A stretch of DNA of 64,000 nucleotides from Chloroherpeton thalassium ATCC 35110 (GTDB lineage Bacteria > Bacteroidota > Chlorobiia > Chlorobiales > Chloroherpetonaceae). The stretch's first letter is position 1, and the number at the start of each line of letters is the position of its first letter. This document shows positions 15,932 through 26,321 of this stretch, piece by piece. The notes under the pieces are model-generated. The model saw only the letters and a program-made list of their open reading frames with translations. It did no database searches and was not told the origin of the DNA. A program made the position numbers and the translations under genes. The stretch is from positions 2,710,001 through 2,774,000 of the forward strand of contig NC_011026.1 in NCBI RefSeq assembly GCF_000020525.1, read 5' to 3'.

Positions 15932-16925
15932 CTACAACTCCTGAATCTTTTCAGGCGATAGTCCCGTTTCCTTCTGAATTTCCTCCACGCTTGCGCCAAA
16001 CTTTTTCATTTGAATGGCTAATTTCACGGCCAGCGAAGTCTGTTGTTCTAATGCAGCCGCCTTTTCCTTTAGCGCGGCTTCTTTTTCTTGGCGTTCTTTT
16101 TCAGCTTTTTGCTCTGCTTCAGCTTTTGCTGCTTCGGCTTCAGCTTTTGCTGCTTCGGCTTCGGCTATTTTTTTTTATGTACTTGGCCTCCTGCTCGTCA
16201 AATATCCGGTCGATTTCCTCCTCTGCTTCCAAGTTTCGTCTAAATGACTCGTCCATGAGCGGGCTTCGCAAATATTCAACCATGTCTGCAAATTCCTCTG
16301 GCGTTTCTTCTAATTCCAATATGTAATCGGCCTCTTTGCTTATCCATTTTTGGTTGAACAACGTCAAAAACTTTTCTAACCGTGTGCGCCGCTCTTTCGG
16401 CAAACGCCTCACTTGAATGATGTGAGATTGATGCGTTAAATGCTCTACAAAAAAACTCTTCACGTTCAACCGCTCTTTGCTCACCGAATCGATAATTTCA
16501 CGATTCACCGTTACGGCCATGTACGGTAAATCCTCCATGTTATAACCCAAAATGTATATCGTAATGATGGGATACGCTGCCTGATATTCAGCCATTGCGG
16601 ATTCATCCTCGCGCTTCTTCGGCTTTGCCATGTAGTTTGCGCCAAGATAATTTCTAAAGCGTTGAATGTCGGTTGAGAACTTGGACTTTTGAAGTTCAAT
16701 TAGCACAGTTTTTCGGCTGCCATCTGCTTCTTTGATGACCGCTTTGAAATCCAAGCGAAACAGAGTTAGCTGGCGTTTCTCGTCGGGAAATATGGTTTCC
16801 TGCTGATCCAGCGTCACTTCCTCAACTTCTACATCCAAAATCACCGACAAGACTTTCTTGGCAAACTTGTCATTTGCCATCAAATATTTAAATGCCTTGT
16901 CATAGAGCGGATTGACAATTTTCAT
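15932..16925 (-). pseudogene. Rpn-family PD-(D/E)XK nuclease gene, frame broken at an A9 run
   Basis: The uninterrupted frame covers 16140-16925 (261 residues). It starts MKIVNPLYDKAFKYLM and carries the nuclease core (LFRLDFKAV, then VLIELQKS), as in Rpn/PDDEXK_2 recombination-promoting nucleases or putative transposases. It stops soon after a run of nine A residues (16168-16176 on the top strand). Dropping one A restores a frame to a stop at 15932: an Ala-Glu-Lys coiled coil, then LAVKLAIQMKKFGAS and a short helix-turn-helix-like end. The restored product (about 330 residues) matches the intact paralogue at 23503-24474 (323 residues) end to end. This could be a real frameshift, a sequence error or transcriptional slippage. 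Confidence 0.75.
16116..16157. repeat. Two perfect 21-bp tandem repeats
   Basis: Two head-to-tail copies of a 21-bp unit beginning GCTTCAGCTTTTGC encode the AEAEAAK-type coiled-coil heptads in the restored frame of the broken Rpn gene. Confidence 0.85.
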
Positions 16926-21608: not shown

Positions 21609-23405
21609 CTAAAAAATACTCATGTCATAAGTCGAGTCTATGTCCGAGATGTTCGGCTGCCAAGTGCGCACATGAATCAGGGGTTTGTTCGTATCGTTCA
21701 AATCCACCATCAAAAACAGGTAGCCCGTGTCGCCGTAGTTTGAGGAAAAATAATGCTGCTTGATTTGCACACCGTACACATTTCCGCCCGTGCCGCCCTT
21801 GCGAACCCGGCTTTCCTCAAACCGAATATTGATATACTCTTTGCTTCCGAAGGAATATCTCAAATTTCCGATGTACTCGGCTTTGGGTTGGCGATTGTAT
21901 TTTACAATCCGATTGTTTTTAAACCGATTTTCAACATCGGCGTTTTTTACCAAATGTCCCGTGATAATCAGCGCATTATCGGCAAAAATAGACTCGATAT
22001 AATCCGCTCGCTTCAGCGCATACGCGGTTTTAAAATGCTCCAAAAAGTTTATCAACACAAAGCGGTTGCTTTTTTCCCAAGCCTCTTGTTCCATGATGCT
22101 CGAAAAAGCTTTTTCGGACAGCCCGAACGAAAGGCTCTCGATCTTTTTTTCCTTGTCAAAATGAAATACGACATCTTCAACAAACTTTTTGTAGTTGTTT
22201 TGAAAATGAAACGCCATTTTCACCGAACGATACATCACCTCGCCGCGATGCGCGAAAATTTGCGGTTCGGGCGTGCTTAAAATGCGGGCGTTGCCATATC
22301 CGACAAGCTTTTGAAATATCTCAAAGCCTTCCTCCGTAAAAAAACGTTTCACCGAACGATACTTGCCGTTTCGTATGGCCGCCGAGACCTTTTGAACGAT
22401 TTCCTTATATGTTTCGGGATTTCGGACAAATTCCATATCCGCCGCAACCGGCAAGGCTGCAGGCCTCGCCTCGTCGTCGGAGTCGCCGTCGAAGCGAATA
22501 TCGTAGTAGCTTTTTCGGAAGGCAATCGGCTCGATGCGCTGCATGACCATTTGAAGCTCGTCATCAATTTTGGCTTGATTTTCATATATATATTCGACCT
22601 TCAAGCGAGCGTTTTCCTTATTCTTTGAATTTTCGCCGACGTATTCCAAAAAGCCTTCGCCGTCTTTAGCGCCGATGAGGTTCGTCCAGTCGCGCCCGTC
22701 CCAGTAGGAATAATCCAAATTCGCAACCGGTGCGTCTTTGTAAAAAATCTTGAGCGGCACGATTTTCGTTTTTTCGCCGTCTTCGCTGTCGGTCGCTTTA
22801 AACCGAAGATGACCGAAAAGCTCATCCATTTTAACCGGCAGCCACACAATGAGTTTTTGCGCTGAGCGGCCTTCAACGGAAAGGTTGATTTCGTTCCAAT
22901 CGGGATGGCTTTTCAAGAGTAGAAGCGCCCAATAAGCATAGCGCAGCGCGTCGCCGATGCGCCGTTCCGATTCGGCCTTCAAGGCGGATTTTACAAAAAC
23001 GATGATTTTTTCCTTGCGCTCGCGAAAGACCTTTTCAACTTCCGTCCGTTTGATGTAGCGAAACACGCGGGCATCCGGCTCGTTGCCGAGAACAAGCCGT
23101 TCGGTATTGTTCAGCGTGGCGGTTGAATAAGTTTTGACGACGGAGCGGGTTTTTTCCTGCAAGACGGCTTTGTCGCCCTTGCTTTGTTCATCTACCAAAT
23201 GCTCGAATTTGCTTTCAACTGTGGTTGAAATTTGACCGGCGAGCATGGCCAATGCCTGCTTATCTGCGACGTTGAGCGTCGCGCCCACGCCTTCGCCCCA
23301 TAAGTATTGTGGATTTTGCTTTATCTCCTCGATGGTCTGAGCCAAGAGGATATTCAAGTTCAAAATGAAAAGGGCGAAAAAGAAGAGGAATCGTGCGTTT
23401 TTCAT
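21609..23405 (-). CDS. Secreted LPP20-like protein
   Basis: 598 residues with a signal peptide (cleavage near residue 22 after LLAQ) but no lipobox. Residues about 30-150 resemble the LPP20/FlgT-N-type domain: YLWGEGVGATLNVADKQAL followed by ARVFRYIKRTEVEKVF. The rest is mixed alpha/beta, with two similar late segments (YRSVKMAFHFQNNYKKF and related) of unknown fold. Similar proteins in Bacteroidota often sit near PEGA-repeat proteins, and one lies on the same strand 1.2 kb upstream, past an Rpn gene. An envelope role is inferred only. Confidence 0.6.
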   Translation of the reverse strand: MKNARFLFFFALFILNLNILLAQTIEEIKQNPQYLWGEGVGATLNVADKQALAMLAGQISTTVESKFEHLVDEQSKGDKAVLQEKTRSVVKTYSTATLNNTERLVLGNEPDARVFRYIKRTEVEKVFRERKEKIIVFVKSALKAESERRIGDALRYAYWALLLLKSHPDWNEINLSVEGRSAQKLIVWLPVKMDELFGHLRFKATDSEDGEKTKIVPLKIFYKDAPVANLDYSYWDGRDWTNLIGAKDGEGFLEYVGENSKNKENARLKVEYIYENQAKIDDELQMVMQRIEPIAFRKSYYDIRFDGDSDDEARPAALPVAADMEFVRNPETYKEIVQKVSAAIRNGKYRSVKRFFTEEGFEIFQKLVGYGNARILSTPEPQIFAHRGEVMYRSVKMAFHFQNNYKKFVEDVVFHFDKEKKIESLSFGLSEKAFSSIMEQEAWEKSNRFVLINFLEHFKTAYALKRADYIESIFADNALIITGHLVKNADVENRFKNNRIVKYNRQPKAEYIGNLRYSFGSKEYINIRFEESRVRKGGTGGNVYGVQIKQHYFSSNYGDTGYLFLMVDLNDTNKPLIHVRTWQPNISDIDSTYDMSIF

Positions 23406-23502: not shown

Positions 23503-24474
23503 CTACAACCGCATAATTTCTTCGAGCGAAAGGCCGGTTTCTCGAGCAATCTCTTCCGTACTTGCGCCGAATTTTTTCATTTGAACGGCCAATTTCACCG
23601 CAAGCTCTTCTTTTTGTCGGCGGTCGGCGTCTCTTTCCCGGCGCTCTATTTCCAACATTTTTTCCGTTTCGGCTTTTGCTTTCTCGGCTTCCTCACGGCC
23701 TTTTTTTTCCGCCGCGATTTGCTTCATATACTTGGCTTCCTGCTCGTCGAATATCAAATCCAGTTCCTCTTCGGCTTCCAAGTTTCGCCGAAATTCCTCG
23801 TCCGACAGCGGCGTGCTTAAATACGTCGCCATTTCCGAATATTCCTCCGGCAGTTCTTTCAGGTCTAGGATGTACTCTTTATCGGTTATCCATTTTTGAT
23901 TGAACAGGGTCAAGAACCGCTCCAAACTCGTTTGACGTTTTTCCGGCAGGCGCTTGACCTGTATGATGTGCGATTGATGCGTCAGGTGTTCCACGAAAAA
24001 GCTCTTCACATCCAGCTTTTCCTTGCTGACCGAATTGATGATTTCACGATTGACCGAGACCGCCATGTACGGTAAATCCTCCAATTTATACCCCAAGATG
24101 TAGATGGTGATGATCGGATAGGCGGTATGGTATTCGGGATAGCGGTTCGTTTCCGATTCCTTCTCTTTGGGTTTCGACATGTAATTCGCCCCGAGATAGT
24201 TTCGGAAGCGATGGATGTCGGTGATATATTTCGATTTTTGCAGTTCGATCAACACCGTTTTGCGCTCGCCGCCCGGTTCTTGAATCACGGCTTTGAAGTC
24301 CAGACGAAACAAGGTGAGCCGGCGCTTTTCATCGGGAAACAGCGTTTCCTGTTGCGCCAATGCGACTTCCACGACTTCCGTGTCCAAAATGACCGACAAG
24401 ACCTTTTTGGCGAACTTGTCGTTCTCCATCAAATATTCGAACGCCTTATCGTAAAGCGGATTGACGATTCTCAT
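23503..24474 (-). CDS. Rpn-family recombination-promoting nuclease / putative transposase
   Basis: 323 residues, intact. The N-terminal PD-(D/E)XK domain starts MRIVNPLYDKAFEYLM and contains LFRLDFKAVIQ and VLIELQKSKY. An EAEEELDLIFDEQEAKY helix, a Glu/Lys/Arg-rich coiled coil and a terminal FGASTEEIARETGLSLEEIM helical pair follow. Rpn proteins are Ca/Mg-dependent DNA endonucleases tied to RecA-independent recombination and phage defence. It is a close paralogue of the broken copy at 15932-16925, yet its codons are clearly GC-richer, which suggests separate arrival. It separates the LPP20-like gene from the PEGA gene. Confidence 0.8.
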   Translation of the reverse strand: MRIVNPLYDKAFEYLMENDKFAKKVLSVILDTEVVEVALAQQETLFPDEKRRLTLFRLDFKAVIQEPGGERKTVLIELQKSKYITDIHRFRNYLGANYMSKPKEKESETNRYPEYHTAYPIITIYILGYKLEDLPYMAVSVNREIINSVSKEKLDVKSFFVEHLTHQSHIIQVKRLPEKRQTSLERFLTLFNQKWITDKEYILDLKELPEEYSEMATYLSTPLSDEEFRRNLEAEEELDLIFDEQEAKYMKQIAAEKKGREEAEKAKAETEKMLEIERRERDADRRQKEELAVKLAVQMKKFGASTEEIARETGLSLEEIMRL

Positions 24475-24641: not shown

Positions 24642-26321
24642 TTAACGCACCCGTTCCATCTCATCAGACACTGCTTGCCAACCATTCTGAGATGGGAAGT
24701 CTACCAGCATATCATAATCCCCTGTGAGGCCAACCTCTTTAACAATTCCTACATCTCCATGCTTGACTTCACCCCACTTACGCTTTGGAGTACTTATACT
24801 CCTTTTTACTCTAACTTTATCACCAACTTGAAAGCTCTGTATGATACTAGTCTGTACATGTTCAACCCGTTCCATCTCATCAGACACTGCTTGCCAACCA
24901 TTCTGAGACGGGAAGTCTACCAGCATATCATAATCCCCTGTGAGGCCAACCTCTTTAACAATTCCTACATCTCCATGCTTGACTTCACCCCAATCACACT
25001 TTGGAGTACTTATACTCCTTTTTACTCTAACTTTATCACCAACTTGAAAGAACCCTGACGGAAACGAATCGCTTTTTTCCAGCTTTACGCTTAGGGTTTG
25101 CGTTTTGCCTTCCGTCACCTGCACGGTTTGCACCACATCTTTGTACCCCGGTTTTGTCAGCTTTATTTCATAAACGCCTTCCAAAAGGTTTTTCAGGGTT
25201 TTCGGCGTTTCGCCCTGTTTTTTGCCCTCTATGTAAATGTCGGCTTCCCAAGGGTCGCTGGCAATATCCAGCGTTCCGTATTTCGGGCGTGGAATCAGGT
25301 TTAGGGTTTGGGTTTCGCCTGCGATAATTTCCACCGTTGCTCGGGCGTCTTCATGCTTGGGCTTTGTCGCGGAAACGGTATAAACGCCGGGCAGGAGCCT
25401 GCCGGTGTAGCCGCCCGTTCCCACCGGCTTGTTATCAATTCTAATTTCCGCGCCTTCCGCCGTCTCCACGCTCACCGTTCCAAAGGCCTGCTTTAAACGA
25501 ACCGTGAGCGTTTGCGGCACGCCGGCTTTTACGGTCATACTTCGCTCCGTCGGCTCGTACCATTCGCGCAAAAATTTCAGCCGGTGTTCCCCCGCCATGA
25601 CTTCGGTTAGTGTGCAAGGCGTGGTTTTTCCGGTCGGGTTGCCGTCCAAAAGCACCGTCGCGCCGCTTTCGGGTTCGCTCTCAAGCCTGAGCGAGGCAAA
25701 ATTCGGTTTCAGCTTCAGCGTCAATTTTTCCTTATCGCCCGTTCGGGTTAAATCAATCACGCCGGCAGCCGGTTGGTATTTGGCCTTGGTGAGGCGGTAA
25801 TTGTATTTTTGCTTTTTCAGCTTTTTCTGAAACGGCGTTTGCCCCAGATATTGCTCGTCCAAATAAAGTTCCGCGCCCTCCGGTTCAGTTTGCACCAAAA
25901 GCCACGCGCTTTCAATTTCAGGCGCTTCCACGATGGTTTTTATTTTTCCCGTTACCAACACCATCTCATAAACCGTCGCCTCCGAAATCGTTTCGGGATA
26001 AACGTAGTCGCGCAAAACGCCGAGCTGATCGTGTTTAATGGTGATTTTTTTTGAGCCGTAAGGGACGTAAATCCACCATTCGCCGGTTTTTTTCAGCGTT
26101 TTCATAATGCCCATCATGCCGCCTTCAAAGACGAAGCCGGTCTCGGTGGTCACCATTTTGATGAGGGCGCATTTGTCGCCGTTTTGGTCGATGACGGGAT
26201 CGGTAATGCGGGCGGTCTGGTCAAGAGGCAGGCTGCGGAACGATTTTACGCTCATTTGCTGCGCCCCGGCTTCCGAGAAAAGCAGCGCCAGCAAAAAAAA
26301 CGAAAGCAATACATGTTTCAT
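24642..26321 (-). CDS. Secreted PEGA-repeat protein with two KEG/HERC2-like C-terminal repeats
   Basis: 559 residues with a signal peptide (cleavage near residue 20). An N-terminal domain (SFRSLPLDQTARITDPVIDQNG, then WWIYVPYGSKKITI) resembles PEGA-linked proteins of Bacteroidota. Four PEGA repeats follow, each with a GAxxxxDxxxxGxTP-like turn, from about residue 143 to 415. The last 135 residues are two near-identical units, each GDKVRVKRSISTPK...W, VKHGDVGIVKEV, MLVDFPSQNGW and DEMERV, a pattern I know from the HERC2-like repeats of plant KEG ubiquitin ligases. These units use AGA/AGG/ATA/GTA codons, unlike the GC-rich PEGA part, so the gene is a mosaic. Confidence 0.75.
   Translation of the reverse strand: MKHVLLSFFLLALLFSEAGAQQMSVKSFRSLPLDQTARITDPVIDQNGDKCALIKMVTTETGFVFEGGMMGIMKTLKKTGEWWIYVPYGSKKITIKHDQLGVLRDYVYPETISEATVYEMVLVTGKIKTIVEAPEIESAWLLVQTEPEGAELYLDEQYLGQTPFQKKLKKQKYNYRLTKAKYQPAAGVIDLTRTGDKEKLTLKLKPNFASLRLESEPESGATVLLDGNPTGKTTPCTLTEVMAGEHRLKFLREWYEPTERSMTVKAGVPQTLTVRLKQAFGTVSVETAEGAEIRIDNKPVGTGGYTGRLLPGVYTVSATKPKHEDARATVEIIAGETQTLNLIPRPKYGTLDIASDPWEADIYIEGKKQGETPKTLKNLLEGVYEIKLTKPGYKDVVQTVQVTEGKTQTLSVKLEKSDSFPSGFFQVGDKVRVKRSISTPKCDWGEVKHGDVGIVKEVGLTGDYDMLVDFPSQNGWQAVSDEMERVEHVQTSIIQSFQVGDKVRVKRSISTPKRKWGEVKHGDVGIVKEVGLTGDYDMLVDFPSQNGWQAVSDEMERVR
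24650..25050. repeat. Two 185-bp direct repeats, 216-bp period
   Basis: Copies at 24650-24834 and 24866-25050 differ at only a handful of positions (for example gatggg against gacggg), with a short linker between. They encode the two KEG/HERC2-like units of the PEGA protein. The near-identity at silent positions shows a recent duplication or ongoing conversion. Confidence 0.92.

Follow-up and report, generated by a model that had tools for sequence, protein, structure and literature searches.

A 64,000-nucleotide stretch of the Chloroherpeton thalassium ATCC 35110 genome, called the window below, encodes a PEGA-repeat protein whose C-terminus resembles repeats of eukaryotic ubiquitin ligases. 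What is this tail, where did it come from, and what may it do on a bacterial protein predicted to be exported? The host genome is a single contig of 3,293,456 bases, in which the two paralogs of the protein and the neighbours of its gene could also be inspected.

Domain architecture and genomic setting

The reading frame of the gene is intact and encodes 559 amino acids (Table 1). Pfam search of the protein assigned its PEGA part to PF08308 over four stretches (E=5e-52), preceded by an N-terminal domain of ~119 residues and a leader peptide, which was called by reading the sequence. The PEGA repeats lie behind an export signal, as in a PEGA-domain envelope protein, and, judged from the leader peptide alone, the protein is predicted to be exported, in agreement with the secreted carrier proposed in the initial annotation. 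The joining of PEGA and SH3_15 domains is a new architecture with known domains as its parts.

Table 1. The PEGA/SH3_15 gene and its parts, in window coordinates
Feature	Position	Strand	Basis
Complete gene, 559 aa: signal peptide, N-terminal domain, four PEGA domains, two SH3_15 (HERC2-like) repeats	24642..26321	-	ORF, translation, Pfam
Predicted signal peptide, residues 1-21 (MKHVLLSFFLLALLFSEAGAQ)	26259..26321	-	sequence; similar leader peptides in both paralogs
N-terminal domain, residues ~22-140	25902..26258	-	common to paralog at genome 2854132 (51% identity)
PEGA domain 1	25704..25901	-	PF08308 E=4.7e-11
PEGA domain 2	25488..25697	-	PF08308 E=6.7e-14
PEGA domain 3	25296..25481	-	PF08308 E=1.0e-5
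PEGA domain 4	25071..25277	-	PF08308 E=3.1e-19
HERC2-like SH3_15 repeat 1, STPKCDWG variant	24865..25050	-	PF18346; direct repeat
HERC2-like SH3_15 repeat 2, STPKRKWG variant	24649..24834	-	PF18346; direct repeat; AlphaFold2 pLDDT 93.9

Both paralogs have the leader peptide, N-terminal part and PEGA repeats in common with the window protein. The paralog at genome position 2854132, whose identity to it extends over residues 1-280 of the paralog, lacks the SH3_15 tail and ends in a linker; in the one at 2798835 (25% identity), which likewise lacks SH3_15, the PEGA domains are followed by an FGE-sulfatase domain. The PEGA proteins of this genome thus bear different C-terminal modules. In locus L007 (817-2727 and 3107-4016), a PEGA paralog is joined to a SUMF1-like FGE-sulfatase domain, and the Rpn gene next to it is frameshifted.

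Immediately downstream of the PEGA gene is an intact gene of the Rpn family of recombination-promoting nucleases (23503-24474, minus strand). A second Rpn-family gene (15938-16925, minus strand) is broken by internal stops in the nuclease frame, and further copies, some of them broken, are found elsewhere in the genome. Farther downstream, on the strand of the PEGA gene and its neighbouring Rpn gene, 21609-23405 encodes an exported protein of 598 aa that contains an LPP20 lipoprotein-like domain (E=8.6e-8).

The tail consists of two near-identical HERC2-type repeats

Residues ~425-559 comprise two copies of a ~62-residue unit, which the initial annotation had recognised and which at the DNA level is a direct repeat of 186 nt with 98% identity and 216-nt spacing. 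The copies differ at four bases, three in neighbouring codons and one silent, and their proteins differ only by CD in copy 1 versus RK in copy 2. Both repeats are intact and keep every family-invariant position. Across the family, the position of the CD/RK spot of the tail repeats (24642-25050) is variable.

The tail matched the Pfam family SH3_15 (PF18346, 'Mind bomb SH3 repeat domain') over two stretches (E=3.2e-8; 34.2 bits, cut-off 24), and even a single repeat scored 25.1 bits against the curated cut-off of 24. Plain-sequence search of the Protein Data Bank returned human HERC2 (9l8y, phmmer E=8.7e-18) as the only strong match, which, as a sequence match, is far above chance level; a profile search gave E=2e-30, the profile itself including HERC2. 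One repeat is 53% identical to the HERC2 domain in pairwise alignment, and the two share the signature GDKVRVK..(S/T)TPK..WG.V....VG.VK...D..VDFP.Q..W....EME.V. MIB1 repeats (REP) belong to the same Pfam family, whose cut-off the tail exceeds, but MIB1 structures matched the tail profile only weakly and partially (E=3e-4), far below HERC2.

AlphaFold2, run on an alignment of 15 domain sequences from the window and from phages, predicted the repeat as a confident five-stranded barrel (pLDDT 93.9, pTM 0.79). Foldseek placed this model on HERC2 structures 9l93 and 9l8y (TM 0.87-0.89, rmsd 1.6 Å, 49% identity), far ahead of other solved structures, and the superposition on 9l8y (TM 0.89, rmsd 1.6 Å) identifies the predicted repeat as a small SH3-like barrel. 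Sequence and structure comparison therefore bear out the HERC2-type identity first suggested, with HERC2, rather than some common bacterial SH3 family, giving the best matches. Pfam also returned NifZ, NHase_beta_C and L21e weakly; these were rejected as the identity of the tail, SH3_15 being the better match, and are read as related SH3-like barrels. Two further products were discarded: a full-length AlphaFold2 model built without an alignment (pLDDT 41 outside PEGA), and alignment A3 of the double repeat, in which single-repeat phage sequences had aligned to one copy only.

HERC2, whose solved fragment ends with the SH3_15 barrel, is a HECT E3 ligase found inside the cell; the window protein, by contrast, is a predicted exported protein and bears the barrel twice, on PEGA domains. 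In the 559-aa protein, Pfam found no HECT, RING, RLD or MIB/HERC2 domain. Nor did the host genome, searched for HECT and for ubiquitin, yield a HECT match, and its best ubiquitin match was sub-threshold (E=0.85), in keeping with the lack of a ubiquitin system noted in the initial annotation. A ubiquitin role of the window protein is very unlikely on these grounds. Substrate binding by the related repeats is documented: the HERC2-like repeats of KEG on their own pull down MAPKKK18 (PMC11020294), and the REP domain of MIB1 contacts the C-box of Notch ligands (PMC11887331). Structure 9l93 contains HERC2 with its ligand NCOA4, which may touch either the SH3_15 barrel or the MIB/HERC2 domain beside it.

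The tail differs in composition from the rest of the gene

Residues 1-424 are encoded with a GC3 of 0.61-0.65, but for the tail the value is 0.33 (Fisher p=1.3e-5, with only one repeat counted), and one repeat still differs from the last PEGA domain alone (p=0.004). The fall lies at codon ~420, corresponding to position ~25060, where the initial annotation had expected it, so GC3 is not uniform along the gene. The codon bias noted there was likewise found: AGA, AGG, ATA and GTA make up 10.4% of codons in the tail, 2.6% in the rest of the gene and 2.0% in window segments. Among window ORFs (mean GC3 0.49, 95th percentile 0.60), the tail ranks at percentile 3 by GC3 and percentile 19 by total GC; some of the GC3 contrast comes from the PEGA part, whose GC3 is unusually high by the standards of the window. 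The data support a compositional history of the tail separate from that of the rest of the gene. This break is a direct observation, as are the domain identity, predicted fold and duplication of the tail and its absence from the paralog.

The domain is rare in bacteria and recurrent in phages

The tail is the sole SH3_15 match above cut-off in the host genome. Among 395 genomes sampled across Bacteroidota, no other one had SH3_15, either by Pfam search or with a profile built in this analysis, and at comparable score it was found in none of 97 other genomes of the class. Scanning one genome per species across 84,980 species with one exact peptide motif from the alignment, which gives a lower bound, revealed one further bacterial relative, in Syntrophomonas palmitatica; among 399 genomes drawn from its phylum, only Syntrophomonas itself has the domain. 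The S. palmitatica protein (L023, 5653-6663) has several SH3-like repeats and is close to phage contig L024, and its gene is probably that of a prophage or mobile element, given this close alliance. In plasmids, tblastn with two different query repeats returned zero matches.

The same subfamily occurs in seven Pseudomonas phage records and about a dozen IMG/VR contigs, with ~40-60% identity between the phage copies and the window repeat. Among viral structures, the repeat model fits best on the model of gp152 of Pseudomonas phage phiK7A1 (TM 0.89). The domain is thus HERC2-like, as had been claimed, but not restricted to eukaryotes, since these Pseudomonas and environmental phages share it and one copy is 60% identical. 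The phage proteins (phiK7A1 gp152, Otagovirus REC/M5.1 and IMG/VR L011-L025, with two repeats in L011) differ from the window protein in having neither an evident leader peptide nor PEGA domains, and in often lying within replication gene clusters. A single-sequence scan of IMG/VR gave zero matches, and a DNA pattern for VDFPxQxGW gave seven, four of them in contigs known already and three in new ones encoding unrelated proteins. In a coarse search of open-licence papers, no bacterium or phage was found described as having HERC2-like or SH3_15 repeats.

In seven phage contigs the domain gene has a DNA polymerase gene no more than 3 kb away: L011 (where a DnaB-type helicase gene is also nearby), L012, L013, L015, L018, L021 and L022. 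Since L012 is related to L013, and L015, L018 and L021 to one another, the seven loci amount to about four independent arrangements. The domain gene is near a Gp2.5-type ssDNA-binding gene in L014 and a thymidylate synthase gene in L017. This gene context is a sign, short of proof of a replication role, that phage SH3_15 proteins are often part of replication gene clusters; those near polymerase genes are possibly an uncharacterised family of replication accessory proteins.

Origin and possible role of the tail

Fusion to the PEGA gene followed by tandem duplication is the simplest reading of the history of the tail. We infer a foreign origin and a phage donor: foreign DNA, with a phage as its most likely carrier, was probably fused in frame to the gene, and a phage is the likelier donor considering how the domain is distributed among phages and which sequence is nearest. 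Direct transfer would instead derive the tail from part of the gene for a HERC2/KEG-type ligase in a neighbouring eukaryote, the phage copies then being separate or later captures. The 53% identity of HERC2 would fit such a transfer, as would the near-absence of the domain from sampled bacterial genomes and the fact that the best match of HERC2 among all rows of the domain tree is the window repeat, ahead of every phage copy. Phage L012, however, stands nearer to the window repeat (60% identity; path length 0.92 in the tree, against 1.65 for HERC2), the phage copies are diverse and spread over several unrelated phage groups, and the tree, of 62 columns, has mostly weak or unresolved forks and leaves the donor question unsettled. 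Transfer from a eukaryote is accordingly given little credence, and phage capture of the domain is considered likelier.

Whether the tail does anything is a separate matter. Foreign DNA might have joined the frame by chance and been kept because it is harmless; the confinement of the tail to this genome among sampled relatives, the near-identity of its tandem copies, which suggests youth, and the Rpn nuclease genes directly downstream and elsewhere nearby, some broken, are all compatible with this. An involvement of Rpn-type nucleases in the acquisition is speculation. Neutral addition nevertheless seems unlikely to us, as both repeats are intact with all invariant family positions kept, the fold is predicted with high confidence, and the amino-acid differences between the copies are confined to one variable spot. 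Still less probable is a barrel descended from phage replication factors that binds DNA, extracellular DNA for example, or a polymerase-type partner. The replication genes beside the phage homologues (polymerase in seven loci, Gp2.5-type in L014, thymidylate synthase in L017) and the weak matches to the SH3-like barrel of ribosomal L21e point that way, but by sequence count the 10 basic residues of one repeat are balanced by 10 acidic ones, leaving a net charge near zero, the ligands of the closest characterised relatives are proteins, and the polymerase loci shrink to about four independent arrangements.

A binding role, raised in the initial annotation, may reasonably be supposed for the tail by analogy with these relatives; its location and ligand binding are likewise what we infer. 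In the mechanism proposed here, an exported PEGA-repeat protein would have gained a C-terminal HERC2-type SH3_15 barrel that was later duplicated in tandem. The PEGA domains would form a stalk anchored in the envelope via the N-terminal domain, and the two near-identical barrels at its tip would grip a partner protein by a peptide segment or a surface loop, with avidity arising from the pairing of two weak sites, comparable to the holding of substrates by the related repeats of HERC2, MIB1 and KEG. For this anchored stalk with two barrels engaging a protein ligand with avidity, we consider the case evenly balanced. Against a periplasmic or surface role stands the lack of a characterised precedent, most relatives being phage proteins without an evident leader. 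Taken as a whole, acquired and duplicated SH3_15 barrels on an exported PEGA stalk, with putative ligand binding, form the best explanation, which we hold to be modestly probable.

A broader scheme, which we put forward as doubtful, would have phages serve as a mobile reservoir of a widespread, uncharacterised, replication-linked HERC2-type SH3_15 domain that bacteria occasionally capture as an envelope binding head, the eukaryotic HERC2, KEG and MIB repeats descending from the phage family or sharing a source with it. By this finding, a module that binds substrates in eukaryotic ubiquitin ligases is present on a bacterial protein predicted to be exported, with close relatives in tailed phages. 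Its interest is moderate and is raised by the phage reservoir: the module may plausibly travel by phage, and in phages it can be studied free of the ubiquitin system, while the near-identical pair with its single divergent spot offers a test case for how a newly acquired binding head is retained or changed.
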